A stretch of 64,000 nucleotides of DNA from Thauera carbonicopians (GTDB lineage Bacteria; Pseudomonadota; Gammaproteobacteria; Burkholderiales; Rhodocyclaceae), in contig NZ_JANUXN010000004.1 in assembly GCF_025699485.1 (NCBI RefSeq), forward strand, positions 248,001-312,000, given 5' to 3'. A model generated the notes under the pieces. The model did no database searches. It saw only the letters and a program-made list of their open reading frames with translations, and had not been told where the DNA came from. How positions within the stretch are numbered: the first letter of the stretch is position 1; each line of letters starts with the position of its first letter. Positions 7,406 through 60,803 of this stretch are shown here, one piece after another. Position numbers and translations under genes: made by a program.

Positions 7406-7409
<4 letters not shown>
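5841..7409 (+). CDS. pilS: PilS-type membrane sensor histidine kinase
   Basis: A 522-residue kinase. Residues ~18-170 contain about six hydrophobic segments, the PilS-like membrane domain. A PAS-like region (~195-295) follows. The dimerisation/phosphoacceptor motif SMAHEIRNPLSAV places His319. The ATPase part shows the N box (LDNLLANARRYC), G1 (DDGPGLD) and G2 (KGTGLGLYI). The kinase would phosphorylate the adjacent PilR-type regulator. In other bacteria PilS/PilR control sigma-54-dependent pilin transcription. There are no pilus genes in this window, so the target set is unknown here. The stop overlaps the regulator start by 4 bp, so the pair is translationally coupled. Confidence 0.9.
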
Positions 7410-8812
<1,403 letters not shown>

Positions 8813-10225: not shown

Positions 10226-10291
10226 GCGGTGATTCTATCCGTCATGAACCCTGGCTTGCCATCGGGATAGCTGCTCAGTACTTTGTCATCC

Positions 10292-22076: not shown

Positions 22077-23120
22077 ATGCCCATCAAGATCAAACCGCTT
22101 TCACCTGAGCACGCCGTGCGCTGGGACGCCTTCGTGCGCGCCTGCCCGCAGGCGACCTTCTTCCACCTGTCGGCGTGGCAGGACATCGTGCGCACGGTGT
22201 TCCGTCATCGAACCTTCTTCCTGTTTGCCGAGCGCGACGGCGACATCATCGCCGTGCTGCCGCTGGCCGAAGTCAAGAGCCGGCTCTTCGGCCACGCCCT
22301 GACTTCGCTGCCGTTCTGCGTGTACGGCGGCATCGCCGCGGCCGAGGATGCGGGCGACGAGGCGGTCGCCCTGCTCGAGCAGGAGGCTGACGCCCTCGCC
22401 CGCAAACTCGGCGTGCAGCATCTGGAATACCGCAATCTCGACCGTATTCGCCACGAGGACTGGCCGCGCCAGGATCTCTACGTGACTTTTCGCAAGGAAA
22501 TCCTGCCCGAGGTCGAAGCCAACATGCTCGCGATTCCGCGCAAGCAGCGGGCCATGGTGCGCAAGGGCATCAAGAACGGACTCGTCAGCCAGATCGATGC
22601 AGACGTCGAGCGCTTCTTTGCGCTGTACTCCGACAACGTGCTGCGCCACGGCACGCCGGCATTGCCGAAGAAGTTCTTCCAGCGCCTGAAGGCCACGTTC
22701 GGCGACGATTGCGAAGTGCTCACCGTCACCGATGCCGGCGGTCGGCCGCTTTCCAGCGTGCTCAGCTTCTACTTCCGCGACGAGGTGCTGCCCTATTACG
22801 CCGGCGACGATGTCGCCGCGCGCGAACTCGCTGGCAACGACTTCAAGTACTGGGAATTGATGCGTCGCGCTTGTGAGCGCGGCTGCAAGGTGTTCGACTA
22901 CGGTCGCAGCAAGATCGGCACCGGCCCGTACAGTTTCAAGAAGAACTGGGGGTTCGAGCCTCAGCCGCTGTCATACGAGTACCGTCTGTACAAGCGTGAC
23001 GGCGTGCCGCAGAACAATCCGATGAACCCCAAGTACCGTGCCTTCATCGCCTTGTGGAAGCGTCTGCCGCTGGGGATGGCGAACGCCATCGGCCCGCACA
23101 TCGTGCGCAACCTGGGGTAA
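22077..23120 (+). CDS. FemAB-family XrtA/PEP-CTERM system-associated protein
   Basis: A 347-residue double-GNAT protein. The start at 22077 follows an AGGACAAG ribosome site. The N-terminal ACPQATFFHLSAWQDIVRTVF, the middle IPRKQRAMVRKGIKNG and the C-terminal VFDYGRSKIGTGPYSFKKNWGFEPQPL are characteristic of the FemAB-like proteins of exosortase clusters. FemAB enzymes move amino acids from tRNA to peptidoglycan; the XrtA relatives are believed to add an aminoacyl or acyl group to EPS precursors, but this is not proven. It overlaps no neighbour and is followed 11 bp later by xrtA. Confidence 0.9.
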   Translation: MPIKIKPLSPEHAVRWDAFVRACPQATFFHLSAWQDIVRTVFRHRTFFLFAERDGDIIAVLPLAEVKSRLFGHALTSLPFCVYGGIAAAEDAGDEAVALLEQEADALARKLGVQHLEYRNLDRIRHEDWPRQDLYVTFRKEILPEVEANMLAIPRKQRAMVRKGIKNGLVSQIDADVERFFALYSDNVLRHGTPALPKKFFQRLKATFGDDCEVLTVTDAGGRPLSSVLSFYFRDEVLPYYAGDDVAARELAGNDFKYWELMRRACERGCKVFDYGRSKIGTGPYSFKKNWGFEPQPLSYEYRLYKRDGVPQNNPMNPKYRAFIALWKRLPLGMANAIGPHIVRNLG

Positions 23121-23131
23121 AGGTTCTTTTC

Positions 23132-24694
23132 ATGCAGTCTCGAAACGAAGTGCTTGCATCGCACAACCAGGTCGACCGCGCCGGAATCGGAGGGCAATTC
23201 TGGCTTGTTGCAGGACTGATGCTGGCGACGTTTGCCTGGGTGGTCGGCTGGTACTTCAAGACGGCAGCAGACATGGCGGCCATTTGGTGGAAATCGGATA
23301 CTTTTGCACATGGACTGGTGGTGCTGCCGATCTTCGCCTGGCTTGTCTGGCAGAAGCGTGAACTTGTTGTACGCAACATGCCGGAGCCTGCTGTCTCGTT
23401 GATCGGGGCTATGTTCGTGATTGGCCTGGCATGGCTCATCGGGGAAGTCGTAAGTGTTGCCGCGGTTTCTCATGTGGCGCTCGTCTCCATGCTGGTTGCG
23501 GCATTCGTTGCCGTGCTTGGCTGGCGCTTGTCCCGAGTGCTGTTGTTTCCTCTGCTGTTCCTGTTCTTTGGTGTGCCAGTTGGCGAGTTTCTGCTTCCGG
23601 TACTGATGGCTCACACGGCCGACTTTACTGTAATAGCCTTGCGTGCGACCGGCGTACCGGTCTATCAGGAAGGCTTGCACTTCATCGTTCCCAACGGACG
23701 CTGGTCGGTGGTCGAGGCATGCAGTGGCTTGCGCTATCTCATTGCTTCGTTGATGGTCGGTTCGCTCTATGCGTACATCAACTACGTGAGTCTCAAGCGG
23801 CGGCTCATGTTCATGCTGGTGGCGCTTGCAGTGCCGATTGTCGCCAACTGGATACGTGCCTACATCACAGTCATGGTGGGATACCACTTTGGTAGTGAAT
23901 TCGTTGAAGGTTTCATCCACATAGTCTATGGCTGGGTGTTCTTTGGCATTGTCATTTTCCTCATGTTCCTGATCGGGGCCCGCTGGAGGGAAGAGCAGCC
24001 AGAGGTCTTGGCTGTGGTTGGAGCCGGAGAGCCTGATCGGGCCATGACCGCCAAATCCAGGTGGTGGCCGTTGGCACCTCTTGCCGTCTGTGTTGCTATA
24101 TTCCCGCTGATCGCAGCTTCGCTGAATGCACCGATCGAACCCTTTACTGTTGGCCTTCAAGTTCCACCTGCAGCAGGTAACTGGCAGGCCGTCGAGGAGA
24201 GGACGACGCATGATTTCCGGCCGAGCTTCCATGGGCATCGTGGCGACATCTTCCAGACTTATCGGCGTGATGATGGCGCCGAGCTTGGGCTCTATTTCGC
24301 ATATTATGCGGAGCAACGTGACGGTTATGAACTCGTCATGTTCGGCAATAGCTTGAATGGCCAGCAGGAGTCAGGTTGGGTGAGAACCGCCAGTGCCAAT
24401 GCAAAGCTGTCCATTGGTGAGGTTCGCCACGCAGGGTTGCGTCGTGGTAACGATGTCCTGAGTCTCTGGAGCTGGTACTGGATTAATGACCGGATCGTCG
24501 CCAACGATTATTTTGCCAAGATCTTCTTGGCCATCGATCGACTGACGGGGAGGAAGGACGATTCCGCGGTGATCGTCATCACGGTCAAGAATGAGGCTGG
24601 GGCAGGCGATACGAGGGAGATGATCGAGGATTTCCTTGCACACCACTGGACTGCCCTGCAGGCGCAACTGCGTGACGTCGAGGAGCGAAGGTGA
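23132..24694 (+). CDS. xrtA: Exosortase A fused to an EpsI (DUF3485) domain
   Basis: A 520-residue inner-membrane protein. About eight hydrophobic helices fill residues 20-285. The catalytic triad is intact: Cys197 in VEACSGLRYL, Arg242 in NWIRAY and His263 in FIHIVYGW. After a single further hydrophobic segment near 315-330, the soluble C-terminal EpsI domain (GNWQAVEER, GLYFAYYAEQRDGYELV) occupies the rest. Exosortase A cleaves PEP-CTERM tails at the outer face of the inner membrane. The only candidate substrate in the window is the protein at 51666-53264. Base use here is a little more AT-rich than in the flanking genes. Confidence 0.95.
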   Translation: MQSRNEVLASHNQVDRAGIGGQFWLVAGLMLATFAWVVGWYFKTAADMAAIWWKSDTFAHGLVVLPIFAWLVWQKRELVVRNMPEPAVSLIGAMFVIGLAWLIGEVVSVAAVSHVALVSMLVAAFVAVLGWRLSRVLLFPLLFLFFGVPVGEFLLPVLMAHTADFTVIALRATGVPVYQEGLHFIVPNGRWSVVEACSGLRYLIASLMVGSLYAYINYVSLKRRLMFMLVALAVPIVANWIRAYITVMVGYHFGSEFVEGFIHIVYGWVFFGIVIFLMFLIGARWREEQPEVLAVVGAGEPDRAMTAKSRWWPLAPLAVCVAIFPLIAASLNAPIEPFTVGLQVPPAAGNWQAVEERTTHDFRPSFHGHRGDIFQTYRRDDGAELGLYFAYYAEQRDGYELVMFGNSLNGQQESGWVRTASANAKLSIGEVRHAGLRRGNDVLSLWSWYWINDRIVANDYFAKIFLAIDRLTGRKDDSAVIVITVKNEAGAGDTREMIEDFLAHHWTALQAQLRDVEERR

Positions 24695-33107: not shown

Positions 33108-34445
33108 ATGCGTGACCTGATCCTGCTGATGATCGTCGTTCCGGGGGGGCTGCTGGCGCTCCGGCATCCCTTCGTCGGCGCCATGATGTGGACCTGGTTC
33201 AGCATCATGAACCCGCACCGTTTGTCCTGGGGTTTCATGTTCAATGCGCCGGTGGCGATGTTCATCGCCGTCTGCACCCTGGTCGGGCTGTTTGCGTCGA
33301 AGGAGAAGCGCAACCCTTTCATCGGAGCTCCGGTGACCTGGCTGGTGATCCTGATCGGCTGGATGTGCATCACCACGGTGTTCGCCTTCGATACTGCGGC
33401 GAGCCTGGGCATGCTCGAGAAGGTGCTGAAGATCGATCTGATGGTCCTTGTCACCCTGATGCTGGTCCGGACCAAGCGGGAAATGATGGTGTTTGCGTGG
33501 GTGCTCGCGCTCTCGGTGGCTTTTTTCGGCGTCAAGGGCGGCATCTTCACCTTGTCTACCGGTGGGGCGTTCCATGTGCGCGGGCCTTCGGGGTCTTACA
33601 TCGAGGAGAACAACTCGCTGGCGGTGGCGCTGATCATGACCTTGCCCTTGCTCCGCTTCCTCCAGACCACGCTGCACAAGGCCTGGCACAAGCACGCGAT
33701 GACGGTCGCGATGGTGCTCTGCGGGGTGTCGATTCTGGGCTCGCAATCGCGTGGCGCTTTGCTTGGGGTCAGCGCGATGCTGATGCTGCTCTGGTGGCGG
33801 GGCAAAAACAAATTCGCTACGGCGGTCGTCATGCTGTTGTGCGGAGTGGTCTTCTTGTCCTTCATGCCCGACACCTGGTGGGATCGTATGGGCACCCTCC
33901 GGACCTACGAGGAGGATCGTTCGGCGATGGGACGCCTCAACGCCTGGTGGATGGCGTTCAACATTGCCAAGGAGAATTTCTTCGGCGGCGGTTTCAGCAT
34001 CTACAACCAGTTCGTCTATGGTTTGTATGCACCCGATCCGACGATGATCGTGTCGGCCCACAGCATCTACTTCCACATCCTCGGCGAGCATGGTTTCGTG
34101 GGCCTGATCATCTACCTCTGCCTGTGGCTGTCCACCTGGAGGACCGCTGGCTGGTTGCGCAAGCATGGCCGCGCGCAAGCCGAAACCGAATGGTGCGTAC
34201 AGCTCGGCTCGATGATTCAGGTGTCCCTGGTTGGTTTCGCCATCGGCGGTGCCTTTCTCAGCCTCGCCTATTTCGACTTGCCCTACAACCTGCTGGCGCT
34301 CGCCGTGGCGGCGCGGGTGTGGGTGGCGAGCAAGGGGTGGCAGAGTGAACCCACCGTTGTGCCCGAGCGGCGTATTTTCGGCATCCCGCTCTTTCTCGGC
34401 GATCGTCTCGTCACACCGCAGGGCTCAAGACTTGGACAGGCGTAG
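33108..34445 (+). CDS. Putative O-glycosylation/O-antigen-type ligase, exosortase A-associated (Wzy_C family)
   Basis: A 445-residue membrane protein with about eleven hydrophobic segments. The N-terminal MWTWFSIMNPHRLSWGFMFN belongs to the DUF5935-type domain seen in the exosortase-associated ligase family. The long periplasmic loop contains RGPSGSYIEENNSLAVAL and the Wzy_C-like SQSRGALLGVSAM. A later AHSIYFHILGEHGFVGLIIYL matches the O-antigen ligase/polymerase pattern. It may polymerise repeat units or attach glycan to a protein or lipid acceptor. It ends the first forward block and overlaps the convergent ATP-grasp gene by 21 bp. Confidence 0.9.
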   Translation: MRDLILLMIVVPGGLLALRHPFVGAMMWTWFSIMNPHRLSWGFMFNAPVAMFIAVCTLVGLFASKEKRNPFIGAPVTWLVILIGWMCITTVFAFDTAASLGMLEKVLKIDLMVLVTLMLVRTKREMMVFAWVLALSVAFFGVKGGIFTLSTGGAFHVRGPSGSYIEENNSLAVALIMTLPLLRFLQTTLHKAWHKHAMTVAMVLCGVSILGSQSRGALLGVSAMLMLLWWRGKNKFATAVVMLLCGVVFLSFMPDTWWDRMGTLRTYEEDRSAMGRLNAWWMAFNIAKENFFGGGFSIYNQFVYGLYAPDPTMIVSAHSIYFHILGEHGFVGLIIYLCLWLSTWRTAGWLRKHGRAQAETEWCVQLGSMIQVSLVGFAIGGAFLSLAYFDLPYNLLALAVAARVWVASKGWQSEPTVVPERRIFGIPLFLGDRLVTPQGSRLGQA

Positions 34446-35654
34446 CGCGTAGTTGCGCATATCGGCGAGAAAGGGGCCGGGATCGCGCCGATCCCAGAGG
34501 TAGTAGCAAGTGTTCGGACGGAGGAAGTCGCGGGCGAAGCGCCACAGCTCCCGTCCCGGCTGGATGTCGAAGAAAGGGTCGCGGATCCTGCCGGGCTGGA
34601 AGAGGAGGCGCACCAGGCGCTTCACTTCGGTCGATACCATGCGGCAGCGCAAGGTCTCGCGCAGCGGCGGCAGCGCCGGTGTGCGGCCGAGTCCCTGGAG
34701 GTGGTAGGCGAGGCTGGCGAAGCTGGCACCGGCCTGCACCGCGAGCGGAAAGCTGCCCCAGAAGCGGCCGTTGATCTCCATCAGCGCCGCCTCGCCGGTG
34801 GCTTCATCCAGGCGGTACTCCACCATGGCGCAACCTTCCCAGCCGATCGCCCGCAGGAGGGCGATCGAGCGCTCCTGCAGCGCCTGATGCTGCGACAGCG
34901 GCACCACGTCGCAGACGCTGGAGAAGCCGCCCTCCGGCGGCCATTCGGCGATGCGCAGGTGCTGGAAGCGGCGGACCACCTGACCCTCGTGCATGAAGAA
35001 GAACTGGCCGAGACCGCGCCCCGGGCAGTATTCCTGGATCAGCGGCCAGATCCCGGCAACGGCGAAGCGCTCGCCGATCCGGCGCAGGCTCGGCGCATCG
35101 GTAGCATATTCGAGCTTCTGCAAAGCGAGGCCATGCTCGCGCAGGCGGGGCATGGCGGCAATCGGGTCTGCCCACTTCACCACCACCGGATAGTTCAGTT
35201 CCGCGCAGGCTGCCTCCCATTCCTCCAGGCTTTCGGCAGCGCGGGTGCGGGGCACGCGGATCCCCACGCTTTCTGCCAGCGCCAGGGTCCGGGCCTTGTC
35301 GAGCACGCGGGCGAAAGTGTCAGGCTGTGGGGCGATCACCTTGACGGGGCCGAAGGTGTCGCGGTGCGTCATGAGCCACTGCAGGTCGGTCTCCGAAATG
35401 CCCAGCAGGATGGCGCCGCCGTATTCCTCGCCAAGTGCGCGGATGCACTGGACGAGGGCATCGTTGCGGGCCGGCCCGACCACCACGCCGCGCTCGAGGT
35501 GGCGCGAAGCGAGCCCGATCGAGCGCTCGCGGCTGGCGAGGCCGATGACGCGAACGCCCGCCCGGGCCAGTTCGCGGATCACGCCGACGCCGATCTGGGT
35601 TTCGATGCCGAGTACGAAGCAGGGCGGATCGTTCGTTATGGATGTTTCGCTCAT
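34425..35654 (-). CDS. ATP-grasp family protein (carboxylate-amine ligase-like), copy 1
   Basis: A 409-residue protein. The N-terminal nucleotide-like domain (FVLGIETQIGVGVIRELARAG) precedes the ATP-grasp fold: PVVVKWADPI (ATP-lysine strand), LIQEYCPGRGLGQFFFMHEG (hinge) and ALMEINGRFWGSFPLAVQAG with the metal-binding Glu and Asn. Such enzymes join a carboxylate to an amine or thiol through an acyl-phosphate. It heads away from the core operon, downstream of a deacetylase (15 bp gap) and a phosphatase gene, forming a three-gene reverse operon. Substrate unknown; an aminoacyl or acyl decoration of the polysaccharide is a reasonable guess. Confidence 0.85.
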   Translation of the reverse strand: MSETSITNDPPCFVLGIETQIGVGVIRELARAGVRVIGLASRERSIGLASRHLERGVVVGPARNDALVQCIRALGEEYGGAILLGISETDLQWLMTHRDTFGPVKVIAPQPDTFARVLDKARTLALAESVGIRVPRTRAAESLEEWEAACAELNYPVVVKWADPIAAMPRLREHGLALQKLEYATDAPSLRRIGERFAVAGIWPLIQEYCPGRGLGQFFFMHEGQVVRRFQHLRIAEWPPEGGFSSVCDVVPLSQHQALQERSIALLRAIGWEGCAMVEYRLDEATGEAALMEINGRFWGSFPLAVQAGASFASLAYHLQGLGRTPALPPLRETLRCRMVSTEVKRLVRLLFQPGRIRDPFFDIQPGRELWRFARDFLRPNTCYYLWDRRDPGPFLADMRNYALRLSKS

Positions 35655-39423: not shown

Positions 39424-41106
39424 ATGATTTTGATTAGAGGGGTAATCGGCCCTGGCGGATGCGAGCCGAAGCTGGGCGGTGTGCCAACTGTCGGTGGAAA
39501 GTGGGAGCGGGCCGAAGGGGAAGGATGGCAGCTCGAATTTTCGCTCGATCGCTCCGGCCGTTCGATGCGCAGCCAGGAAGGCTTGCTCATTCATGATGGC
39601 CGTGTCGATGATTTTGCCGGCGCGTTGAAGGAGCGAAGCGGCTCGTGGCTCCAGGTCGACTGGTCGCAAGCCGGACAACTGGTGTTTGCAACGGATCGCC
39701 TGGGGACGATCCCGATCTACTGGGGGCTCAGGGACGGCAGGGCTTTCTTCGCCAGCCGGCTTATCGACATGGTCCGGTTCGGCTTCGACAGCCCGGATGC
39801 ATTGGGCGTGATGCAGATGGTCATGCTGAACCAGTCCACCGGTGTGCGCACGGTGCTCGAGGGGGTCTCGTTGTTGCCCTGCGCCTCGACGGTGGCACTG
39901 TCCGTCCAGGGAACGAGCGCGGCCAGCCGCTACTGGACCCCCTTCGTCACCGACGAGGCGGTTGCCAACGAGCAGCAGTGGCTGGATGAAGGCCTCGAAG
40001 TGATCCGCGAGGCGAACCGGAAGGCGGTGCGGACGGCGATTCCCGGCAAGGTCGCCTGGCCCTTGACCGGCGGCCTCGATTCGCGCGGGAATTCCGGTTG
40101 TTGCGCCGACCTGATCGGCCCCGACGACCTGTTCTTCCACGTCGAGGACATGGGCGACTTCGAGTTGCCGATTGCGCGGCGGCTTGCCAACGTGTACGGC
40201 AAGACGGTCCGCGAGTTCCATTCCTCCAAGTCGATGCGCGAAGCCGCACGGTCCGACCTCGATCTCGATTCGGGTGATCTCAACGTGGGGCACTGGCGTT
40301 TGCGGGGCACGGCGCAGGAGCTCGCCGAAGAACTCGGCTATTCGTCCACCGTTGACGGCTTCCTGCAGGGCATCCTGATGAACCCGGGCATGTTCTTCCA
40401 TGAAGGAACTGTGGCGGATGCGCGCGAGCGTTGCTTCAAGATGGCCAGTTTCCGCGCAGAGATGTTCAAGCTCGATCTGCAGGGTGCGCCATTCCGTCAA
40501 TTTCGCGAGGACTACGAGGCGACCTTTCCAGGCGGTCGTCATGGGCTGGATGCGAGCCAGCAGTTCATCATGGAGAACCGCAGCCGAAGGATGGTCTTCG
40601 GCATCGTCCGTCTGAATGCAAATTACCTCGATGTCCGCACTCCGGGGATGGACAGCGGACTCATCGATTACGCGATGCGTCTGCCCTGGAGCCTGCGCAA
40701 GGGGGCGATTGCGTACAAGAAGATCATCGGCATGATCGACCCCAGGCTTGCGGCAATCGATCACGACAAGACCGGTCTGCCGCTTACCGCGGGTGCCGAG
40801 GTGTCGAGAAAGCGCAAGATCGCGAAATACGTCACCTACTACGTGAATCGGGTGTGGCCGGGCGAACCTCTGCTCAAGGGCAAGGAAACTGCGTTCGAGC
40901 GGATGTTGCGGGCCGATGAAGCCTTCCGCACGGAAGTCTACGATGTGATTTCCGGGTCCCGCTGGATCGAGGAGATTTTCGGCCGGGACATCATCAAGGT
41001 CGTGGAGGGCCAGCGTCTCAGCCGAGGGCTCTCTTTTGACGGCGTCGGCGCGTTGCTGACCATTGCGCTGCTCGAAAAGGCGGGGAAGGATCAGACTCGC
41101 AAGTAA
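39424..41106 (+). CDS. Degenerate asparagine synthase-like protein
   Basis: A 560-residue protein with the asparagine synthetase layout but altered key residues. The N-terminus starts MILIRGVIGPGG with no catalytic cysteine at position 2, although glutaminase-domain landmarks persist (GRVDDFAGAL, FATDRLGTIPIYWGLRDGRAFFAS). The synthetase PP-loop reads LTGGLDSRG instead of SGGxDSS; the core Gly-Gly-x-Asp-Ser is kept. The C-terminal half is helical and divergent. It probably binds ATP and might use free ammonia or an amine, or make an amide or ester bond with another nucleophile. It is followed by a terminator-like hairpin serving the opposite strand. Confidence 0.8.
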   Translation: MILIRGVIGPGGCEPKLGGVPTVGGKWERAEGEGWQLEFSLDRSGRSMRSQEGLLIHDGRVDDFAGALKERSGSWLQVDWSQAGQLVFATDRLGTIPIYWGLRDGRAFFASRLIDMVRFGFDSPDALGVMQMVMLNQSTGVRTVLEGVSLLPCASTVALSVQGTSAASRYWTPFVTDEAVANEQQWLDEGLEVIREANRKAVRTAIPGKVAWPLTGGLDSRGNSGCCADLIGPDDLFFHVEDMGDFELPIARRLANVYGKTVREFHSSKSMREAARSDLDLDSGDLNVGHWRLRGTAQELAEELGYSSTVDGFLQGILMNPGMFFHEGTVADARERCFKMASFRAEMFKLDLQGAPFRQFREDYEATFPGGRHGLDASQQFIMENRSRRMVFGIVRLNANYLDVRTPGMDSGLIDYAMRLPWSLRKGAIAYKKIIGMIDPRLAAIDHDKTGLPLTAGAEVSRKRKIAKYVTYYVNRVWPGEPLLKGKETAFERMLRADEAFRTEVYDVISGSRWIEEIFGRDIIKVVEGQRLSRGLSFDGVGALLTIALLEKAGKDQTRK

Positions 41107-41205: not shown

Positions 41206-42375
41206 TCACGCGCCGCCAGTCACGGTGCGGCCGACCTTGCGGACCGCGCGCGACGGCAGATTGCCGAGGAAGCGGCCGAGCGACAGCAGCCAGGGACCCG
41301 GGTCGGACAGGCTGGCATAGACGCCGCGGATCCGGTGTCGCAGAAGTTGAGCAGGCGCATGCCGCAGCAGCCAGAGCACGGCGCCCGGGTCGCGCTCGCC
41401 GTTCATCCACAGATGGCTGCGTCGCTGCGACTGCATTTGCAGCGGCTGCCGGGTCTGTGCGCGATACTCGATGAGAGTCATGTCGACGCCGTTGGCGGCG
41501 CACAGCCCGGCCCAGAAGTCGGTGCGGCCGACGGTCGGCTCGATCACCCAGTAGCGCCCCTGCGGATCCTGCTTGAGCTCGAGCGATACCGGGCCGGAGA
41601 GATTCAGCCCTTCGAAGAAGCGCAATGCGAGTGCGTGCACCTGATCATCCGGTTCGGACACCGCGATCGTGGTATGCCCCATCGGCCGCGAGCGCAGCTT
41701 GCGGCCCTCGAAACGGGCGAGGACGCGGCCTTCGTCCAGATACAGGGCGCCAAAGCGGATCACCGTGTCGTCGCCGGGAATGAATTCCTGCACCACGATC
41801 GGCAGGCTGCCTTCCATGCGGGCGCGTGCCGCGAGAAATGCCTCGAAGGAGGCCGACACCTGGGTCTTGAACGCCGAGACCGGCCGGGTCGGCTTGGCGA
41901 TCACCGGAAAGGCGATCGATGCGAGCTTCTCCTGCGCCTCGGCAAAGTCCGAGACGAGGACGGATCTGGGATAATTCAGCCCCGTTTCGCGGCAGCGTGC
42001 CTCGATGCGGTCCTTCGCCAGCAGTGGGGCAAGGGTTGCGGCCGCGTGCCCCCAGCTCAGGCAAAAGTGTTCCTCGAGGGTGGCGACGTGCCGGCTCACC
42101 GTTTCGACCATGCGATCGTTGGTCAGCAGCAGCACTGGCCGCGCAGGCTCGCCGAGTTCCCGCGCAAGCGCAAGCAGCACATCGATGAGGCCATCGCCGT
42201 TGATGTCGACCACGATACGTACGGATGCGCAGCGGGTGCGTACGCCGGGCAGCGCTGCGTTGGCTTCGAGCGCGACCACCTGGATGCCGTCTCGGTGCAG
42301 GCTGCGAGCCATGCCCACGCCGTGTGCACACAGACCGACCACGACGGCGGTAGAGGATCGGGAGGTTTCGGGCAT
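41206..42375 (-). CDS. ATP-grasp family protein, copy 2
   Basis: A 389-residue protein. The N-terminal part (VVVGLCAHGVGMARSLHRDG) is a pre-ATP-grasp domain. The fold follows with FPVIAKPTRPVSAFKTQV, IVVQEFIPGDDTVIRFGALYL, and the metal-binding strand YWVIEPTVGRTDFWAGL. It is only distantly similar to the copy at 34425-35654, so the two likely have different substrates. It diverges from the acyl carrier protein gene (102 bp gap), an arrangement that suggests a related function: ATP-grasp enzymes can join an activated carboxylate to an amine or to a carrier thiol. This is inference. Confidence 0.82.
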   Translation of the reverse strand: MPETSRSSTAVVVGLCAHGVGMARSLHRDGIQVVALEANAALPGVRTRCASVRIVVDINGDGLIDVLLALARELGEPARPVLLLTNDRMVETVSRHVATLEEHFCLSWGHAAATLAPLLAKDRIEARCRETGLNYPRSVLVSDFAEAQEKLASIAFPVIAKPTRPVSAFKTQVSASFEAFLAARARMEGSLPIVVQEFIPGDDTVIRFGALYLDEGRVLARFEGRKLRSRPMGHTTIAVSEPDDQVHALALRFFEGLNLSGPVSLELKQDPQGRYWVIEPTVGRTDFWAGLCAANGVDMTLIEYRAQTRQPLQMQSQRRSHLWMNGERDPGAVLWLLRHAPAQLLRHRIRGVYASLSDPGPWLLSLGRFLGNLPSRAVRKVGRTVTGGA

Positions 42376-42477: not shown

Positions 42478-42729
42478 TTGAATATTCAAGCAGAAATCCT
42501 GTCCATTCTGGACGAAATCCTCAGCCTTCAAGGACGTTCGGCGGCCATGACGCCGGAGACCCCCTTGCTCGGAGCAGTGCCCGAGCTCGACTCGATGGCG
42601 GTGGTCGGCGTGATCGGGGCGATCGAGGAGCGTTTCGGAATCTTCTTCGACGACGACGAGATCGACGGCCAGACATTCGCGACCGTTGGTGCGCTGGTCG
42701 AGGCGGTTGGGCTCAAGGTCGCCGCCTGA
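42478..42729 (+). CDS. Acyl carrier protein, exosortase-locus type
   Basis: An 83-residue carrier protein. TTG at 42478 is the preferred start because AGGGAG lies exactly six bases upstream; a GTG three bases earlier would be too close. The phosphopantetheine attachment serine is Ser39 in PELDSMAVV, and the surrounding helices (IEERFGIFFDDDEIDGQTFATVGALVEAV) are a normal four-helix ACP. It is not beside fatty acid synthesis genes, so it is a dedicated carrier. Possible loaders are the acyl-CoA ligase at 62029-63609; possible users are the FeeM-like acyltransferase at 13197-14018 and the hydrolases downstream. Confidence 0.88.
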   Translation: MNIQAEILSILDEILSLQGRSAAMTPETPLLGAVPELDSMAVVGVIGAIEERFGIFFDDDEIDGQTFATVGALVEAVGLKVAA

Positions 42730-42736
42730 GGCCCGC

Positions 42737-43549
42737 ATGCCGGCGGTGATCGAAGCCTTCCATCTCGCCACGCCGACTGGTTTTCGTTTCTGCACTCTGC
42801 GCCGCGCTGTCCGCCGTGAGCTCGGCCGCGGAACCATCATCCACATCCCCGCTTTTGCCGAAGAGCTGAACAAGTCGCGCCACATGGTTGCCCTGGCAGC
42901 CGAGGCCTGGGCACAACAAGGCTGGAATGTGCTTCAACTCGACCCGGGAGGCTGCGGTGATAGCGCAGGCGAATTCGGCGAGGCGAGCTGGGAGGGCTGG
43001 CTCGAGGACGTACGGCTCGCCCATGAATGGGCGGAGCGCCACTGCGAGGGGCCGGTCTGGCTCTGGGGCTTGCGTCTCGGTGCATTGCTGGCTTGTGAGG
43101 CGGCAGCACGATGGCGTCTCGATTGCGGTTTGCTGATGTGGCAAGCGGTGGCGAGCGGCAAGCAGCACCTGCAGCAGTTCCTGCGCCTGTGGCAGGCGGC
43201 GAGGATCGTGGGCAAGGCCGGTGCAGCGCATGAGGCCTCGCCGCAGCAGCGGCTCGCGGCGGGCCAGACCGTCGAGATCGCCGGCTACGAGCTTGCACCA
43301 GCGCTCGTCGTCGGCATGGAGCAGGCGCAGCTCGAGGCGATCCATGCGCCGCACGGAGTGCATTGGTTCCAGCTCGGCGCTGTATCGCCCGTGATCGAAC
43401 GGCTGGTCGCGAAGTGGCAGGCTGCCGGGGTGGCGGTGAGCATGCATGCGGTGAGTGGGCCCCCGTTCTGGCAGACCCAGGAAATCGAACTCGCGCCGGA
43501 GTTGCTCGCTGCCTCGGCTGCGGCACTGACCGGGAAGGCTGCAGCATGA
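42737..43549 (+). CDS. Exosortase A-associated alpha/beta hydrolase ('hydrolase 2', TIGR03101-like) with Arg at the nucleophile position
   Basis: A 270-residue alpha/beta-hydrolase fold protein starting 7 bp after the acyl carrier protein gene. The oxyanion/strand region IHIPAFAEELNKSRHMVA and the turn LDPGGCGDSAG look normal, but the nucleophile elbow reads WGLRLGA (111-115), with Arg113 where GxSxG has serine. It therefore lacks the usual nucleophile and may be a binding or partner subunit rather than an esterase. It overlaps the next gene, a second alpha/beta hydrolase, by 4 bp; the two probably form a pair. The family is known only from exosortase A clusters and its role is not established. 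Confidence 0.85.
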   Translation: MPAVIEAFHLATPTGFRFCTLRRAVRRELGRGTIIHIPAFAEELNKSRHMVALAAEAWAQQGWNVLQLDPGGCGDSAGEFGEASWEGWLEDVRLAHEWAERHCEGPVWLWGLRLGALLACEAAARWRLDCGLLMWQAVASGKQHLQQFLRLWQAARIVGKAGAAHEASPQQRLAAGQTVEIAGYELAPALVVGMEQAQLEAIHAPHGVHWFQLGAVSPVIERLVAKWQAAGVAVSMHAVSGPPFWQTQEIELAPELLAASAAALTGKAAA

Positions 43550-44466
43550 GCGAACTGCCACTGGTGTTCTACTGCGAAGGCTCGCCCCTGGTCGGGGTGC
43601 TCGGCCGGCCGGATCGGCCGGTGCGCTTGGGCGTACTGATCGTCGTCGGCGGCCCGCAGTACCGGGCCGGCAGCCACCGGCAGTTCGTTTCGCTGGCCCG
43701 CGCGCTGGCGGCCGGCGGTTTTGCCTGCCTGCGCTTCGACTATCGTGGCATGGGCGACAGTGCCGCTCCGCAACGCAGCTTCGAGAACGTGGACGCCGAT
43801 CTGAAAGCAGCGATCGATGCCTTCTTCGAGGCCGTGCCGGAGCTCGACGGCGTCGCCCTGTGGGGTTTGTGCGACGGGGCGTCGGCGGCGCTGATGTATG
43901 CGCCGCTGGACCCGCGCGTGGAGAGCGTGATCGCGCTCAATCCATGGGTGCGCACCGAAGCCTCGCTCGCTGCGGCACGAATCGACCATTACTACAAGGG
44001 CAAGCTGCTTTCTGCGCAGTTCTGGCGACGCCTGTTCAGTGGTGAAGTCAGGGTCGGGCACGCGCTTGCCGGGCTGGCCGGGGCGCTGAAGCAGCGGGCG
44101 AAGGGAAAGGCGCGTACTGCGGCCGGTGGCGCGGCCGCTGCGCGCACCTTCATTGAACGCATGGGCGAAGGCTGGCAGCGGCTGCGTGGCCGCGTACTGG
44201 TGGGGCTCAGCGGCAATGATCTCACCGCGCGCGAATTCGCCGATTTCTGCCATGCGCACCCCATGTGGCGCGAGGCGGTCGAGCCGGGGCCGAACTTTTT
44301 CGAGCTTGCGGACGCCGACCATACTTTCTCCTCCCGTGACTGGAAGCACGCCATCGAGCAGAGGACGCTCGACTGGTTGCGGGCGGGTCTTGCATCATCC
44401 GCGACTCAGCCCTGCGACGAGCCGCATGCCGCGCAGGGGGGCGTACAATTTCAGAGGTCAGCATGA
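43546..44466 (+). CDS. Exosortase A-associated alpha/beta hydrolase ('hydrolase 1', TIGR03100-like) with Cys nucleophile
   Basis: A 306-residue alpha/beta-hydrolase fold protein. It has the GGPQYRAGSHRQF entry loop, the FDYRGMGDS turn, a nucleophile elbow WGLCDGAS with Cys109 in place of serine, and a late ADHTFSS histidine that fits the catalytic position. A cysteine nucleophile favours thioester or acyl-transfer chemistry over plain lipid hydrolysis, which fits the carrier protein encoded two genes upstream. It overlaps the partner hydrolase and the following glycosyltransferase by 4 bp on each side. Function unproven. Confidence 0.87.
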   Translation: MSELPLVFYCEGSPLVGVLGRPDRPVRLGVLIVVGGPQYRAGSHRQFVSLARALAAGGFACLRFDYRGMGDSAAPQRSFENVDADLKAAIDAFFEAVPELDGVALWGLCDGASAALMYAPLDPRVESVIALNPWVRTEASLAAARIDHYYKGKLLSAQFWRRLFSGEVRVGHALAGLAGALKQRAKGKARTAAGGAAAARTFIERMGEGWQRLRGRVLVGLSGNDLTAREFADFCHAHPMWREAVEPGPNFFELADADHTFSSRDWKHAIEQRTLDWLRAGLASSATQPCDEPHAAQGGVQFQRSA

Positions 44467-45437
44467 GTATCACCGGTCTTGTGAGCGTCGTCATTCCCGC
44501 CTACAACGTCGCCTCACACATTGCCGAGGCGATCGATAGCGTCCTGGCGCAGGACTATCCCCAGGTCGAGATCATCGTCGTCGATGATGGCTCGAAGGAC
44601 GATACCGTCGAGGTCGTCGCCACCCGCTATCCGCAGGTCTCCCTGATCCGCAAGGAGAACGGCGGCGCGGCCACTGCGCGAAACGCAGGGATCCGTGCGG
44701 CCCGCGGCGAGTTCGTCGCCTTTCTCGACGCCGATGATATCTGGCTGCCGGGCAAGCTCACGGCGCAGATCGATTACTTCCGCGCGCATCCCGCTGTGGC
44801 GATGAACTGCACCGGCTTTTCGCAATGGGTGTCGGACGAGAAGGGCGTGTTTCCGGATCCTTCCTCGGTGATTCCCGATCAGGGGAAGGTGCCGGTGGAC
44901 GCGATCGACAGCGAGTTCTCGGGCTGGGTCTACCACAAGCTGTTGTTGCGCAATTTCGTGTGGACCACGACGGTGATCATGCGCCGCAGCCTGATCGACA
45001 AGATCGGCCTCTACGATGAGCATTTCCGCCTGGGCCAGGATTACGAATATTTCCTGCGAGCCTCGCGGGAAACCGAAATCCATCGCCTGTCGCGTGCCTA
45101 TGCGCTTTATCGTCAGCATCCGGGCAGTGCGACCGCAGTCGGGCGGGATCACAACTATGCCGCAGACGTCATCGGGCGGGCGCGGGCGAAGTGGGGGCTG
45201 GCCAGTCCGAACGGCGAAGCGATCACGGAACCCGAGATCCGCGAGCGCCTGCACAAGATCCACTTCATGTGCGGGTATCTGTTCCTGAAGCGTGGAATGG
45301 CCGCCAAGGCACTCGACGAATTCCGCTCGGCCGTGAAGGAAAAACCGCTTCACCTGAAATCCTGGGCTTATGTCGCGGTTTCTGCATTGGCCGATCTGCG
45401 GGCTCGCTTCGGCAAGACGGAAGCCCTCAAAGCCTGA
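44463..45437 (+). CDS. Family 2 glycosyltransferase
   Basis: A 324-residue GT-A enzyme. The N-terminus shows VSVVIPAYNVASHIAEAIDSVLAQDYP and VDDGSKDDT, then the DxD metal motif in FLDADDIW. A catalytic acidic residue is in the LGQDYEYFLRAS segment. There are no membrane helices, so it acts at the inner face of the inner membrane on a lipid-linked acceptor. It closes the four-gene forward operon with the carrier protein and two hydrolases, and converges on the secreted propeller-like gene with a 21 bp gap. Confidence 0.92.
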   Translation: MSITGLVSVVIPAYNVASHIAEAIDSVLAQDYPQVEIIVVDDGSKDDTVEVVATRYPQVSLIRKENGGAATARNAGIRAARGEFVAFLDADDIWLPGKLTAQIDYFRAHPAVAMNCTGFSQWVSDEKGVFPDPSSVIPDQGKVPVDAIDSEFSGWVYHKLLLRNFVWTTTVIMRRSLIDKIGLYDEHFRLGQDYEYFLRASRETEIHRLSRAYALYRQHPGSATAVGRDHNYAADVIGRARAKWGLASPNGEAITEPEIRERLHKIHFMCGYLFLKRGMAAKALDEFRSAVKEKPLHLKSWAYVAVSALADLRARFGKTEALKA

Positions 45438-48333: not shown

Positions 48334-49320
48334 TCAGCCGCCCACTCCATGAGGAAGCACCAGGCTGCGCAGCAGGCGCAGGCCGAAGCGGGCGGGTGTC
48401 TTGTCCCACGGCGTGAAGCGTGGCAGTTCGTGGATGCCGCTGTGACGGTCGGCCGCCGCCGGGCGGGTCGACACCGCCGCTTCGAAGCCGCAGTCGGCGA
48501 CGATGTCCGCATGGGTGCCGTCGTAATCCTTCACCGGCCGGCCGTTGGGATAGGCGAAGACCCGCATCGGCTCACCGAGCAGGGCCTCGAGCTTTTCCTT
48601 GCCGAGCCGGATCTCGTGCCGGGCCTCGTCCGGCGTCTGCCGCGCGAGGATCGGGTGGGTGTCGGTATGGCCGCCGATCTCCATGCCGGCGGCGTGGAGC
48701 GCGCGCAGTTGGTCGCTGCTCATCATCAGATCGTCCGGCAGCCGGATGCCGAAGTCGGCGGCGAGCTTTTCCACCGCCGGCAGGCGCTGCTCGGGCGGCT
48801 GGTACTTGAAATGGCCGATCAGCCTACTCATCAGCGCGCGACGGTCCTGCACCGTGTCGACCGAGTGTACGCCGAGGCCGATCGAGCTCAGGTCGCAGGG
48901 GCCGGACGGCACCGCCTTGGCGAACTCGATCAGGGTGTCGTTGAACATCCGGCCGCCGTCGAGGTAGGCAGTGGCGATGAAGAAGGTGCTGGGCAGGCCG
49001 AGCTCGCGCAGGATCGGCAAGGCGACGGTGAAATTGTCGGCATAGCCGTCGTCGAAGGTGATGCAGGCTGCGCGCGGCGGCAGGCTGCTCTCGCGCAACC
49101 GGCGTGCCGCCTCGCACAGCGGCAGCACGTTGAAGTGGCTGGCGAGCAGGCCCATCTGCCAGCGGAAGGTGTCGGCATCCGGGTCGCCGGTGCGCAGCGG
49201 GTCGGGGGTGGGCAGCACGCGGTGGTAGATCAGGATGGAAAGCTTGCCCCGCTTGCCGCCGGGTGAGGCCAGGCCGAGTGCGGTCTTGAGGCCGGGAATG
49301 GTGCTTGCGGTGCGCGTCAT
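48334..49320 (-). CDS. XrtA-locus polysaccharide deacetylase family protein
   Basis: A 328-residue NodB-fold protein. ITFDDGYADNFTVALPIL holds the catalytic and metal aspartates, STFFIATAYL the next strand, and GMEIGGHTDTHPIL the zinc histidines. FAYPNG and the late TRPAAADRHSGIHELPRF complete the pattern of the larger deacetylase family linked to cell-wall and capsule genes. It lacks a signal peptide. The start codon (49320) overlaps the PaaK-like gene stop by 4 bp, so the two are coupled. Confidence 0.9.
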   Translation of the reverse strand: MTRTASTIPGLKTALGLASPGGKRGKLSILIYHRVLPTPDPLRTGDPDADTFRWQMGLLASHFNVLPLCEAARRLRESSLPPRAACITFDDGYADNFTVALPILRELGLPSTFFIATAYLDGGRMFNDTLIEFAKAVPSGPCDLSSIGLGVHSVDTVQDRRALMSRLIGHFKYQPPEQRLPAVEKLAADFGIRLPDDLMMSSDQLRALHAAGMEIGGHTDTHPILARQTPDEARHEIRLGKEKLEALLGEPMRVFAYPNGRPVKDYDGTHADIVADCGFEAAVSTRPAAADRHSGIHELPRFTPWDKTPARFGLRLLRSLVLPHGVGG

Positions 49321-53551: not shown

Positions 53552-54778
53552 TCAGTCCTGTCCGACCGAGGTGAGGAGTCTTGATCGAAGCTCGGCGAGA
53601 TGTTGCTCGAGATTCTCAATCGACAAGCGGATGCCAGGGGGGAGCGGGAAATCTTCAGCTACACAGCTTCGGCTTAGCAGCTTTGCTAGCATCAACTCTC
53701 CCATCTCGCGTTTATAGTGGGCAGGTTCCCAGTACCAGTGGATACTTGTGCCGCGCTCACCGCGCTCCGGAGGTGTTTCGTTAGAGTAGGCGTCCACACT
53801 GTTGAAGTCCCAGAGCGGCACGCTGAAATCGTTGGCAATCCGGGTGATGTGTCTTTTCCAGCTCTCAAGTTCGGTCCACAGTCCCGCTGAGTAGATGGTT
53901 CGGAAATAGTCCACATGATAGGGGTTGATGAACAAAATGATTTCTACCTTTTCGGCTTCAGACCAGGTGAGAAAGTCCTTTAGAGCTTCAAGGTCGGTGG
54001 AGTGCTCCTGACCCGTGGGGAAAAGGCCAAGCCCTGGTTTGTCCAAGCGCGCAGCCAGTTCGTCGTTTTTTTGCTTGAAGAGCACGAACTGTCCTTCATT
54101 GCGGACGATTGCTTCGTAATCGTTTCCGGGATTGAAGCCGTCAGTGCGTCGGTCGGTGATGAAGGGTGTACGCTGCTGAGTAACAGTCAGAAGTGAGTCG
54201 GCCAAGGTACTGAGCGAGAAGAGCGCGCTCAACTTGTCTTGTGCCTGGGTACTGATGATCTTCCAGGGGCTGGTATTTTCACCGGGGATGTCGAGCCGGC
54301 CGGCATAGTTCGCCGACATGCGAGTCCAGTCTGGCGGAAATGTGTCGCTTGGGGCGGTAGTGTCGGTCAGGAAATCAAGAAAGTCGACGGCGAGCAGAAC
54401 TTTCTTGCCTTTGCCAGCAAAGAGCGCGTGTTTGGCGTACTGCGTCTGCATGTAGAAGCCCGCGCCCGGAATACCGCTGTTGAACACGGGTTTGTCTTCT
54501 GCGGACCAGCACGTGCTTTGTGGATCGAGGCCGAGTTCAGGGCGGGAGTTCCCCGCGATGACGGTTGTAGGGCCAAGGACCGATGCCATGTAGGGCTTGG
54601 TCGTGCGGACGCGCTCGCCGGCAGTGGGTTTGCGGGCGTTGATGCCATCCACTCGGGGCGTTCCGAACAACCCGTAGGGGTCGATTAGATAATTGATGCC
54701 GGCGGCCAGGGCGCAGATGATTGCGAAACCGGCGGTGAGTACGATCAGGAAGCGGCGGTACTGAGACGCAGTGTCCAT
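53552..54778 (-). CDS. AlgJ/AlgX-like SGNH-type partner of the MBOAT acetyltransferase
   Basis: A 408-residue protein with one N-terminal membrane helix (FLIVLTAGFAIICALAAGINYLI) and a periplasmic body. A GNSR motif (VIAGNSRPELG) lies where the SGNH/GDSx nucleophile loop is expected, but no clear Ser at the canonical GDS position. A late HWYWEPAHYKREMG supplies the Asp/His-like region. It starts 6 bp after the MBOAT gene ends on the same strand. MBOAT plus such a periplasmic partner is the usual pair for O-acetylation of exported polysaccharides, as in alginate. Confidence 0.72.
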   Translation of the reverse strand: MDTASQYRRFLIVLTAGFAIICALAAGINYLIDPYGLFGTPRVDGINARKPTAGERVRTTKPYMASVLGPTTVIAGNSRPELGLDPQSTCWSAEDKPVFNSGIPGAGFYMQTQYAKHALFAGKGKKVLLAVDFLDFLTDTTAPSDTFPPDWTRMSANYAGRLDIPGENTSPWKIISTQAQDKLSALFSLSTLADSLLTVTQQRTPFITDRRTDGFNPGNDYEAIVRNEGQFVLFKQKNDELAARLDKPGLGLFPTGQEHSTDLEALKDFLTWSEAEKVEIILFINPYHVDYFRTIYSAGLWTELESWKRHITRIANDFSVPLWDFNSVDAYSNETPPERGERGTSIHWYWEPAHYKREMGELMLAKLLSRSCVAEDFPLPPGIRLSIENLEQHLAELRSRLLTSVGQD

Positions 54779-54784
54779 GACAGC

Positions 54785-56371
54785 TCAGAACTGGAAATAG
54801 AGGAATTCGGAGATACTGGTCATTGCGAGCACGCCAAGGCTTGCCAGCGCGCTCAGAGCGATCGCCCAGTATGAGGTGGCTTGCCATGCGATCCGATTCT
54901 TGAAGGTGCGCAAGGGTTGTATTTCATCGTCGTGTTTAGTCTGATGAAGATGCAGGCCCGGATAGAAATTACGCATGATTTCCTGCGTATTCGGCATGAT
55001 CAGCACGATGGGAACCAGGATGATGATCCACAACCAATTGAACACGAAGAGGGAGCCCCCGCCGAGATAGGTCTGGAAGCCGAAATTCGCGAGCAGGGGC
55101 CACAAACTGCCTAGCTGCGCTGCTAGCGCGTTGGGCAAAGCGATGCCATTGACGCCGGCCATCCCCCTCAATATCGCTGCTGCTGCGTCAACACTGCCTG
55201 CACGGAAGAAAACCCAGCCGATGACGACTGCGATGAAAGTAAGTGTCCATGAAAGTGCTCTGGTCACGCTGGCTGGTACTACGGGAGAAGGGAAGAGTCG
55301 GCTGGCAATGTGACGCCAGGCATGATTGATGCAGAGGTAGAGTCCATGGAGGGCGCCCCACGCGATGAAGGTCCAGCCTGCACCATGCCAGAGTCCTCCG
55401 AGAAGCATGGTCAGCATGAGATTACGGTAGCGCTTGAGCTTGCCGCCTCGATTGCCGCCGAGCGCGATGTAAAGATAGTCGCGCAGGAAGGCCGACAAGG
55501 TCATGTGCCAGCGACGCCAGAATTCGATGATGTTGGTTGCCTTGTAAGGCGAATGGAAGTTGACCGGCAGAACGATGCCGAACATCCGCGCAGCGCCGAC
55601 CGCCATGTCGGAATAGCCGGAGAAGTCGAAATACAGTTGAAGTGTGTAGGCGAGTGCGCCACCCCATGCTTCGAAGAAAGTCAACGTGCCACCAGTTGCT
55701 GCAGAGTTGAAAACTGGACTGGCATATTGGGCGATGCCATCGGCCAGCACGGTTTTCTTGAACAGGCCGAGGGCGAAGATGCTGAGCCCGATTGCGATGT
55801 TCCGTGCCTGAGGACTCAGGGCGCCAGGTTGCATGAACTGCGGCAACATGTCGCGGTGGTGTACGATCGGCCCAGCGATGAGTTGGGGAAAGAATGTGAC
55901 AAAAAGAGCGTAGTGAGCGAAACGATATTCGCGTGCCTGCCCTTGGAAGGCATCCACCAGGTAAGCAATCTGCTGGAAAGTGAAGAACGAGATTGCCAGC
56001 GGGAGAATAACGGTTTCGAGGTGAAATTGAGTGCCTGCGACAGCGTTCAGGCTGTTGACGGCGAAATTTGCGTACTTGAAGTGGCCCAGCAGCCCCAGGT
56101 TGAAGACGACACCTGCTGTCAGCCAGCGCTTGCCGGCTGTTTGACGGCCGAGCCGATGGGCCTGGCCCAGTATCAGGCCGAAGCCGAAGTTGGCGATAGT
56201 CGATGCCAGCAGCAACAACAGATAGATCGGTTTCCACCAGCCATAGAAGAAAAGCGATGTCAGTACGAGCCATGCGATGGCCGGTTCCCGTCCTTTGCGG
56301 GCAATCCAGAAATAGATGGCGAAGGTGACAGGCAGGAACAGGAAAAGGAACTCGTAGGAGTTGAAGAGCAT
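54785..56371 (-). CDS. MBOAT-family O-acyltransferase (AlgI/DltB-like)
   Basis: A 528-residue membrane protein with about eleven helices. Diagnostic parts are YFDFSGYSDMAVGAARMFG, the NIIEFWRRWHMTLSAFLRDYLY stretch and GGLWHGAGWTFIAWGALHG with the conserved histidine. These enzymes pass acyl groups across the inner membrane for transfer to polysaccharide. It works with the protein encoded just downstream (6 bp). A 124 bp gap separates it from the VanZ gene upstream. Confidence 0.95.
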   Translation of the reverse strand: MLFNSYEFLFLFLPVTFAIYFWIARKGREPAIAWLVLTSLFFYGWWKPIYLLLLLASTIANFGFGLILGQAHRLGRQTAGKRWLTAGVVFNLGLLGHFKYANFAVNSLNAVAGTQFHLETVILPLAISFFTFQQIAYLVDAFQGQAREYRFAHYALFVTFFPQLIAGPIVHHRDMLPQFMQPGALSPQARNIAIGLSIFALGLFKKTVLADGIAQYASPVFNSAATGGTLTFFEAWGGALAYTLQLYFDFSGYSDMAVGAARMFGIVLPVNFHSPYKATNIIEFWRRWHMTLSAFLRDYLYIALGGNRGGKLKRYRNLMLTMLLGGLWHGAGWTFIAWGALHGLYLCINHAWRHIASRLFPSPVVPASVTRALSWTLTFIAVVIGWVFFRAGSVDAAAAILRGMAGVNGIALPNALAAQLGSLWPLLANFGFQTYLGGGSLFVFNWLWIIILVPIVLIMPNTQEIMRNFYPGLHLHQTKHDDEIQPLRTFKNRIAWQATSYWAIALSALASLGVLAMTSISEFLYFQF

Positions 56372-60684: not shown

Positions 60685-60803
60685 GCCGTACTCCGTTGGC
60701 CGCTGGGACCGAGAAAGATCAAAAACCTGCGGATGATGCCGCATGGAACATGAATTGTCAGTGACGCTTGTCATCCCCTCGCGACATTGGCCTGCCGCGA
60801 TGC

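Follow-up and report, generated by a model that had tools for sequence, protein, structure and literature searches.

In D-alanylation by DltA-DltC-DltB-DltD, an amino acid, a ligase and a carrier act together and the acceptor is an envelope polymer. In butirosin biosynthesis, the final amino-acyl transfer goes to an amino sugar, and BtrH has a fold that differs from that of alpha/beta hydrolases. Carrier-dependent alpha/beta hydrolases are also already known. Here we analyzed a stretch of 64,000 nucleotides of Thauera carbonicopians (contig NZ_JANUXN010000004.1, positions 248,001 to 312,000; hereafter, the window), in which a gene for an acyl/aminoacyl carrier protein (ACP) is followed by two alpha/beta-hydrolase genes, Hyd2 and Hyd1, of families TIGR03101 and TIGR03100. 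These NCBIfam families (exosortase A system-associated hydrolases 2 and 1, both of the hypoth_equivalog type) are names without an assigned activity. In the open-licence literature, PMC3584217 was the only paper found to name TIGR03100, and a two-subunit or twin form with a Cys half and a dead half, shared by several loading systems, was not found in print. Term searches of the accessible portions of two further papers returned no mention of a ligase, hydrolase, decarboxylase, acyl carrier or acyltransferase (Haft 2006, PMC1569441) and nothing on the module (PMC9850573). The two families being known by name, what is new here is how Cys and Arg are paired, the occurrence of fusions, and the connection with a BtrK-like pathway.

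The ACP, Hyd2 and Hyd1 genes form one coupled string inside an exosortase A exopolysaccharide (EPS) locus (Table 1). Both hydrolases scored far above the curated cut-offs of their families: Hyd1 reached 358.3 bits against TIGR03100 (E = 2.4e-107; cut-off 168.45) and Hyd2 314.5 bits against TIGR03101 (E = 5.8e-94; cut-off 202.75). The ACP passed the Pfam PP-binding cut-off of 20.8 with 24.4 bits, and the Pfam matches of Hyd1 were alpha/beta hydrolase families (Abhydrolase_6 and Hydrolase_4). The host locus was recognized by an exosortase A (XrtA) over the TIGR03109 cut-off together with XrtA-type EPS genes; the locus also has chain-length, kinase, FemAB, glycosyltransferase and amidotransferase genes. 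The end of Hyd1 overlaps the start of a GT2-like glycosyltransferase gene by ATGA (44463-44466), and this coupling indicates a polysaccharide context. Among 80 loci found by a pattern scan, the best match to the window was that of Thauera butanivorans (94% identity over Hyd1).

Table 1. Features of the window discussed in the text, with positions counted from its first letter
Feature	Position	Strand	Remarks
ACP, acyl/aminoacyl carrier protein, 83 amino acids	42478..42729	+	TTG start; Pfam PP-binding
ACP Ser39, phosphopantetheine attachment site	codon 42592-42594	+	in ...PELDSMAV
Hyd2, TIGR03101, pseudo-hydrolase partner	42737..43549	+	Arg113 at nucleophile elbow WGLRLG
Hyd2 Arg113	codon 43073-43075	+	
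ATGA overlap, Hyd2 stop/Hyd1 start	43546..43549	+	coupled genes
Hyd1, TIGR03100, putative Cys-His-Asp acyltransferase	43546..44466	+	elbow WGLCDG
Hyd1 Cys109	43870-43872	+	
Hyd1 Asp225	44218-44220	+	
Hyd1 His259	44320-44322	+	
GT2-like glycosyltransferase, next after Hyd1	44463..45437	+	NCBIfam matches all below cut-off
Exosortase A (XrtA, TIGR03109) with EpsI domain	23054..24694	+	over cut-off; defines host locus
ATP-grasp-like gene, divergent from ACP	41206..42375	-	weak NCBIfam match, no Pfam match
Polysaccharide deacetylase	48334..49266	-	
Pyridoxal phosphate-dependent decarboxylase, TIGR03099	57612..58853	-	BtrK = closest solved relative
AMP-forming ligase, TIGR03098	62029..63756	-	nonribosomal peptide synthetase adenylation domain = best solved relative; Asp268 conserved

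We interpret this string as encoding a Cys acyltransferase that depends on the carrier, is partnered by a non-catalytic hydrolase and decorates a polysaccharide, and we give this reading a probability of about 0.68; its substrate, transfer step and acceptor are what we infer from the genes. The TIGR03098 ligase would adenylate an amino acid and load it onto holo-ACP, and the TIGR03099 decarboxylase would then strip the free alpha-carboxylate, as BtrK does on glutamyl-BtrI, to leave an omega-amino-acyl thioester. Cys109 of Hyd1, activated by His259 and Asp225, would receive the acyl group of the ACP, forming an enzyme thioester, and Hyd1 would then hand this group on to an amine or hydroxyl, either on the exopolysaccharide or on its lipid-linked repeat unit. 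Hyd2, having lost the nucleophile (Arg113 stands in its place), may be a non-catalytic subunit, perhaps one that holds the carrier or the glycan.

Distribution of the two hydrolases was analyzed by profile search in 398 genomes of the phylum and 14 control genomes. Of the 398, 28 had Hyd1 and 12 had Hyd2, with scores over cut-off in 26 and 8, respectively; the 14 control genomes gave no Hyd1 or Hyd2. A purpose-built profile recovered divergent Hyd2 genes of one family (f45), which likeness to one locus (L229) suggests is a sphingomonad family. Residue conservation was scored on the 80 pattern-scan loci, found with two peptide patterns, and on 20 regions fetched from the 28 Hyd1 genomes. One of the two patterns includes the Hyd1 Cys, so that 80 of the 100 loci are biased toward it, and the rows are mutually related; this bias is absent from the 28 profile-search Hyd1 rows and from 17 one-gene twin proteins described below.

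Cys109 was present in 28/28 profile-search rows and in 102/102 rows overall. His259 was likewise invariant in the 28 rows and was kept in 101/102 overall, and Asp225 in 100/102. No Ser occurred at the Hyd1 elbow in the 102 rows or in the 17 twins; the original prediction had named a conserved Ser at this position as the result that would count against it. With its nucleophile, acid and His all conserved, Hyd1 has the look of a functional Cys enzyme, either a hydrolase or a transferase. In a profile-profile comparison, Arg113 of Hyd2 fell on Cys109 of Hyd1. This Arg was found in 99/99 Hyd2 rows of the XrtA branch, and no His was among the Hyd2 columns conserved in at least 85% of rows. Hyd2 does not retain a nucleophile, and an Arg at the elbow without a conserved His makes it look like a pseudo-enzyme. 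The gene order and the three marked residues (Ser39, Arg113 and Cys109) on which the original prediction was built are thus borne out by coordinates, family assignments and conservation.

The two hydrolases also appear to work together, as had been proposed, a partnership supported by adjacency, by natural fusions and by co-inheritance with the ligase and the decarboxylase. In 94 of the 97 loci with room for it, the gene immediately preceding Hyd1 on the same strand is Hyd2 (fusions included). An ACP gene lies upstream of the Hyd2-Hyd1 pair in 88/96 loci with room, and the DS motif of the carrier was conserved in 92/92 ACP rows. In five genomes Hyd2-Hyd1 is a single open frame (L082, L120, which is the same protein as the G431 match, L124 in G126, G420, and G474). 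Among genomes with a match, the pair is fused in 3 of 60 from the genus of G294 and in 1 of 7 from the genus of G126. Because the L124 and L082 fusions are separated within the XrtA clade of the tree and fused pairs are a minority in the two genera, fusion of Hyd2 to Hyd1 probably arose more than once. Three further observations concern copy number and host range. The Halioglobus metagenome-assembled genome (MAG) locus L090 carries two Hyd2-Hyd1 pairs close together (5871-7594 and 9159-10837). Members of the genus of G294 (G430:C20, G419:C1, G450:C1, and others) contain another Hyd2-like match at a separate site in the genome; it shares ~45-47% identity with the Hyd2 portion of L082, and no Hyd1 is among the matches listed next to it. 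The pair was also present in MAGs labelled Acidobacteriaceae, Anaerolineales, and Gracilibacteria (L105, L073, and L113, respectively), where transfer or a binning error is possible.

The loading genes give clues to the cargo. Compared with solved structures, the TIGR03099 decarboxylase scored 281 bits with BtrK and 167.5 with the best diaminopimelate decarboxylase, a ranking by bit score. The sole other decarboxylase match in the same genome, presumably lysA, reached 136 bits. K72 and C364 of the decarboxylase were kept in 53/53 rows. BtrK is described as converting BtrI-S-glutamate to BtrI-S-gamma-aminobutyrate (PMC7857480). The best solved relative of the TIGR03098 ligase is the adenylation domain of the nonribosomal peptide synthetase (NRPS) LgrA. 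Its Asp268, the Asp of an SFDxG motif, was present in 56/56 rows and aligns with an FD of LgrA. We take this to be an A4-type region, in which the Asp presumably contacts the alpha-amino group.

Resemblance to the butirosin pathway extends beyond the BtrK-closest decarboxylase to the carrier protein (compare BtrI) and to the ATP-grasp-like gene beside the ACP. BtrJ is presumably the butirosin counterpart of the latter, which has strong relatives in five loci (L044-L047 and L085) and weaker ones in others. The window differs from that pathway in that its ligase is AMP-forming and its transferase candidate is an alpha/beta hydrolase pair. Since the decarboxylase is BtrK-like, the ligase carries an A4-type Asp, and relatives of the hydrolases lie beside amino acid:carrier protein (aa:CP) ligases and NRPSs, we consider an amino-acyl or omega-amino-acyl cargo probable. 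A fatty-acyl cargo, which the BtrK-like decarboxylase, the amino-acid type of the ligase, and the aa:CP and NRPS links disfavor, was downgraded. The original prediction had an unspecified acyl group taken from the ACP; that part stands in refined form, with an amino-acyl group more likely than a fatty-acyl one.

Related pairs occur beside other loading systems. On a Variovorax plasmid, NRPS genes are followed in turn by genes for a phosphopantetheinyl transferase, a Hyd2-like protein (GARLG) and a Hyd1-like protein (GMCSG), and then by genes for EPS export and glycosyltransferases. In L143, the locus of G335, an NRPS precedes Hyd2-Hyd1, and no thioesterase (TE) domain was matched in that NRPS with Pfam. 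When 149 genomes from the family to which G335 belongs were searched, no NRPS-linked pair beyond that of G335 itself turned up. With the TEs of NRPSs and polyketide synthases, which are alpha/beta hydrolases, Hyd1 would share both the fold and a carrier-bound thioester substrate; those enzymes have the usual Ser, whereas Hyd1 has Cys plus an inactive partner.

A more distant relative, a one-gene twin of ~590 amino acids, had matches in 58 plasmid records, 55 of which cover at least 80% of the query. An aa:CP ligase was on the same record for at least 35 of the 58, within ~7 kb in 25 and at 10-23 kb in 10. This overlap was compared by hand and covers 60 of 94 ligase records, so it is a lower bound, and many of the records are near relatives. 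The biological role of the aa:CP ligases is described as unknown (PMC9437257). In Azospirillum, Mycetohabitans, Rhizobium, Phyllobacterium, and Methylobacterium, twins recur with genes for an ACP, an acyl-CoA dehydrogenase, an aa:CP ligase, DUF1839, and GH2. For R. rhizoryzae and Phyllobacterium, the twin sits beside the ACP/aa:CP-ligase group and runs on the opposite strand. These loci resemble the window in bringing together an ACP, an amino acid ligase and a pseudo/Cys hydrolase twin. They differ from it in the loading enzyme, which is aminoacyl-tRNA synthetase (aaRS)-like, and in the acyl-CoA dehydrogenase, DUF1839 and GH2 genes; no match to a BtrK-like decarboxylase was found in the aa:CP loci searched.

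Other twins lie among EPS genes, in Shinella and R. tumorigenes. Near EPS genes, too, are those of Roseateles XES5 (L240), with an ACP and a TIGR03098-like ligase, and of Rhizobium CC-CFT758 (L242), with a TIGR03099-like decarboxylase; both enzymes scored below cut-off, and the annotated features read in the two loci included no XrtA. Of the 17 twin loci searched, 7 contained an aa:CP ligase within the stretch covered, and a further 2 a gene resembling TIGR03098 or TIGR03099. The Cys, Asp and His were kept in the C half of 17/17 twins. Hyd1-Hyd2 and the twins may be one two-domain family of carrier-protein acyltransferases, with an inactive N half and a Cys-His-Asp C half, that serves at least three unrelated amino acid loading systems: the ligase and BtrK-like decarboxylase of XrtA loci, the aaRS-like aa:CP ligases, and NRPSs. 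Their common job would be to place amino-acyl groups onto surface polysaccharides; we put even odds on this wider view.

Within the 398 genomes, co-inheritance was scored with XrtA over cut-off and Hyd1 at E <= 1e-30, and absence of the decarboxylase was judged at E 1e-90. XrtA was over cut-off in 35 genomes, of which 27 had Hyd1 together with TIGR03099 over cut-off, 8 had neither, and none had only one (G126 is counted among the 27 although its Hyd1 is just under cut-off). By simple counting, uncorrected for relatedness, the chance of this co-occurrence of Hyd1 and decarboxylase is ~4e-8. The TIGR03098 ligase was present in 27/27 of the genomes with Hyd1 and XrtA and in 1 of the 8 others, below cut-off. 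With 27 genomes having both and 8 neither, the Hyd pair, ligase and decarboxylase are a discrete, optional component of XrtA loci. An obligatory part for the module in exosortase chemistry was rejected on account of the eight XrtA genomes that have neither Hyd1 nor the decarboxylase.

Several findings weigh against the proposed carrier-dependent acyltransferase. Ligase and decarboxylase are not always accompanied by Hyd1: three genomes (G107, G396, and G155) have both enzymes and no Hyd1 match, and 16 further genomes have a below-cut-off decarboxylase match and no Hyd1 match. In the three, Pfam scans of some ligase and decarboxylase neighbors gave no obvious replacement transferase. Nor are the loading genes always close, as ligase and decarboxylase were both within the flanks in 41 of 69 loci of at least 20 kb. 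Hyd2 is out of place in three loci, namely L075 (no Hyd2 or ACP match near Hyd1), L056 (~1.2 kb upstream), and L101 (other strand). The ACP is not upstream in 8/96 loci (L075, L098, L101, L110, L124, L129, L131, and L143), four of which have one elsewhere in the locus (L098, L124, L129, and L131). Eight of the 17 twin loci have no ligase or decarboxylase in the stretch (L224, L227, L228, L232, L235, L238, L239, and L241), although L232 and L241 have a listed aa:CP ligase 10-13 kb away. The NRPS beside the L101 pair has a TE domain of its own, and EPS is proposed as the acceptor on the strength of gene neighborhood alone.

The residue at the inactive elbow also varies. Of the 17 N-half elbows that aligned, from 16 twins and the separate Variovorax gene, 8 have Arg, 8 have Gly and one has Ser (L242 was unaligned there). 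In a midpoint-rooted tree of 40 C-half domains, the Gly/Ser twins form one group (95/92) and Arg is found on both sides, so Arg is probably ancestral at this position and was lost once. Because Gly replaces Arg in one clade of twins, the Arg is not essential to the mechanism, and Arg113 was rejected as a catalytic residue. Conservation of this Arg, which the original prediction had proposed to check, holds for the XrtA branch and fails in that clade.

Among other explanations, the one that survives best, though we regard it as unlikely, is an editing role: as a type II thioesterase, the pair would remove misloaded acyl groups from the ACP. The alpha/beta hydrolase matches of Hyd1, the adjoining ACP and the presence of a ligase in the locus would all fit such a role, as would the L101 NRPS with its own TE domain. 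This explanation is opposed by the absence of Ser from the Hyd1 elbow throughout the rows and twins and by the L143 NRPS, whose want of a matched TE domain suggests that the pair performs the main release there. To our knowledge, a required inactive partner and fusions would also be unusual for editing enzymes.

Less probable again is a role toward the exosortase substrates, in which the module would build an amine acceptor for the attachment of PEP-CTERM proteins by exosortase A or would decorate a PEP-CTERM protein. XrtA was over cut-off in 27 of the 28 Hyd1 genomes, the exception being G335 with a Hyd pair and no XrtA over cut-off, and decarboxylation would yield a free amine. Exosortases and similar enzymes may, moreover, leave the cleavage site with a new moiety (PMC11980579). 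The original prediction had left EPS and a PEP-CTERM protein side by side as targets; EPS is now favored and the protein less so, because 8/35 XrtA genomes are without the module and because, for some relatives in EPS clusters, the annotated features read did not include XrtA.

Polymerization of omega-amino-acyl units from the ACP into a short polyamide by Hyd1, in the manner of a polyhydroxyalkanoate (PHA) synthase, is very improbable. PHA synthases also use a Cys, located within a GxCxG box, and can have a helper subunit, and the Cys elbow and apparently non-catalytic partner of the pair recall them. However, no PHA synthase family was among the NCBIfam and Pfam matches of Hyd1 (E <= 0.001) or among the solved structures listed for it, and coupling to a glycosyltransferase gene points to a sugar.

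A relative has been discussed in Burkholderia cenocepacia, where the EPS cluster Bcam1330-1341 is reported as needed for biofilm (ten transposon mutants in six genes, with bcam1330-1332 studied further) and Bcam1334 is assigned to TIGR03100 (PMC3584217); no phenotype of bcam1334 was found described there. In another B. cenocepacia strain, we found a twin hydrolase ~16 kb from an ACP/aa:CP-ligase group; this twin is not equated with Bcam1334. The suggestion made by those authors for Bcam1334, a hydrolase acting on the polysaccharide itself in quality control, is the least probable explanation for the pair given that the pair is linked to a carrier protein and to the enzymes that load it, and has a Cys triad within an alpha/beta hydrolase.

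Other genes of the window may bear on the acceptor and on transport. The polysaccharide deacetylase could supply free amines on the EPS as acceptors for the proposed acyltransferase. In Thauera MZ1T, an EPS deacetylase gene is reported to carry a nonsense mutation in a floc-defective mutant and to restore flocculation (PMC4784049); it is not equated with the window gene. The window also encodes a DltB-like membrane-bound O-acyltransferase (MBOAT; 54785-56371, - strand; below the DltB cut-off), a likeness to the Dlt system, and a neighboring protein of 408 amino acids without Pfam or NCBIfam match (53552-54778, - strand). Acyl transfer across the membrane is a possible role for these two. The MBOAT was rejected as the core transferase, as it was matched in 4/100 loci searched; the window differs from the Dlt system in having a ligase of another family and the hydrolase pair instead. 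A second ATP-grasp protein is encoded in the EPS locus (34425-35654, - strand). Three asparagine-synthase-like genes are also present (39424-41106, 25865-27802, and 58888-60774), one over the TIGR03108 cut-off and two below.

If the pair is indeed a carrier-dependent Cys acyltransferase with a non-catalytic partner, two families that have names and no activity would gain a mechanism, and the presence of a ligase, a decarboxylase and an ACP in many XrtA loci would be accounted for. The same proposal would place a transfer step downstream of the aa:CP ligases. It would also predict that the exopolysaccharides of floc- and biofilm-forming bacteria carry amino-acyl groups.

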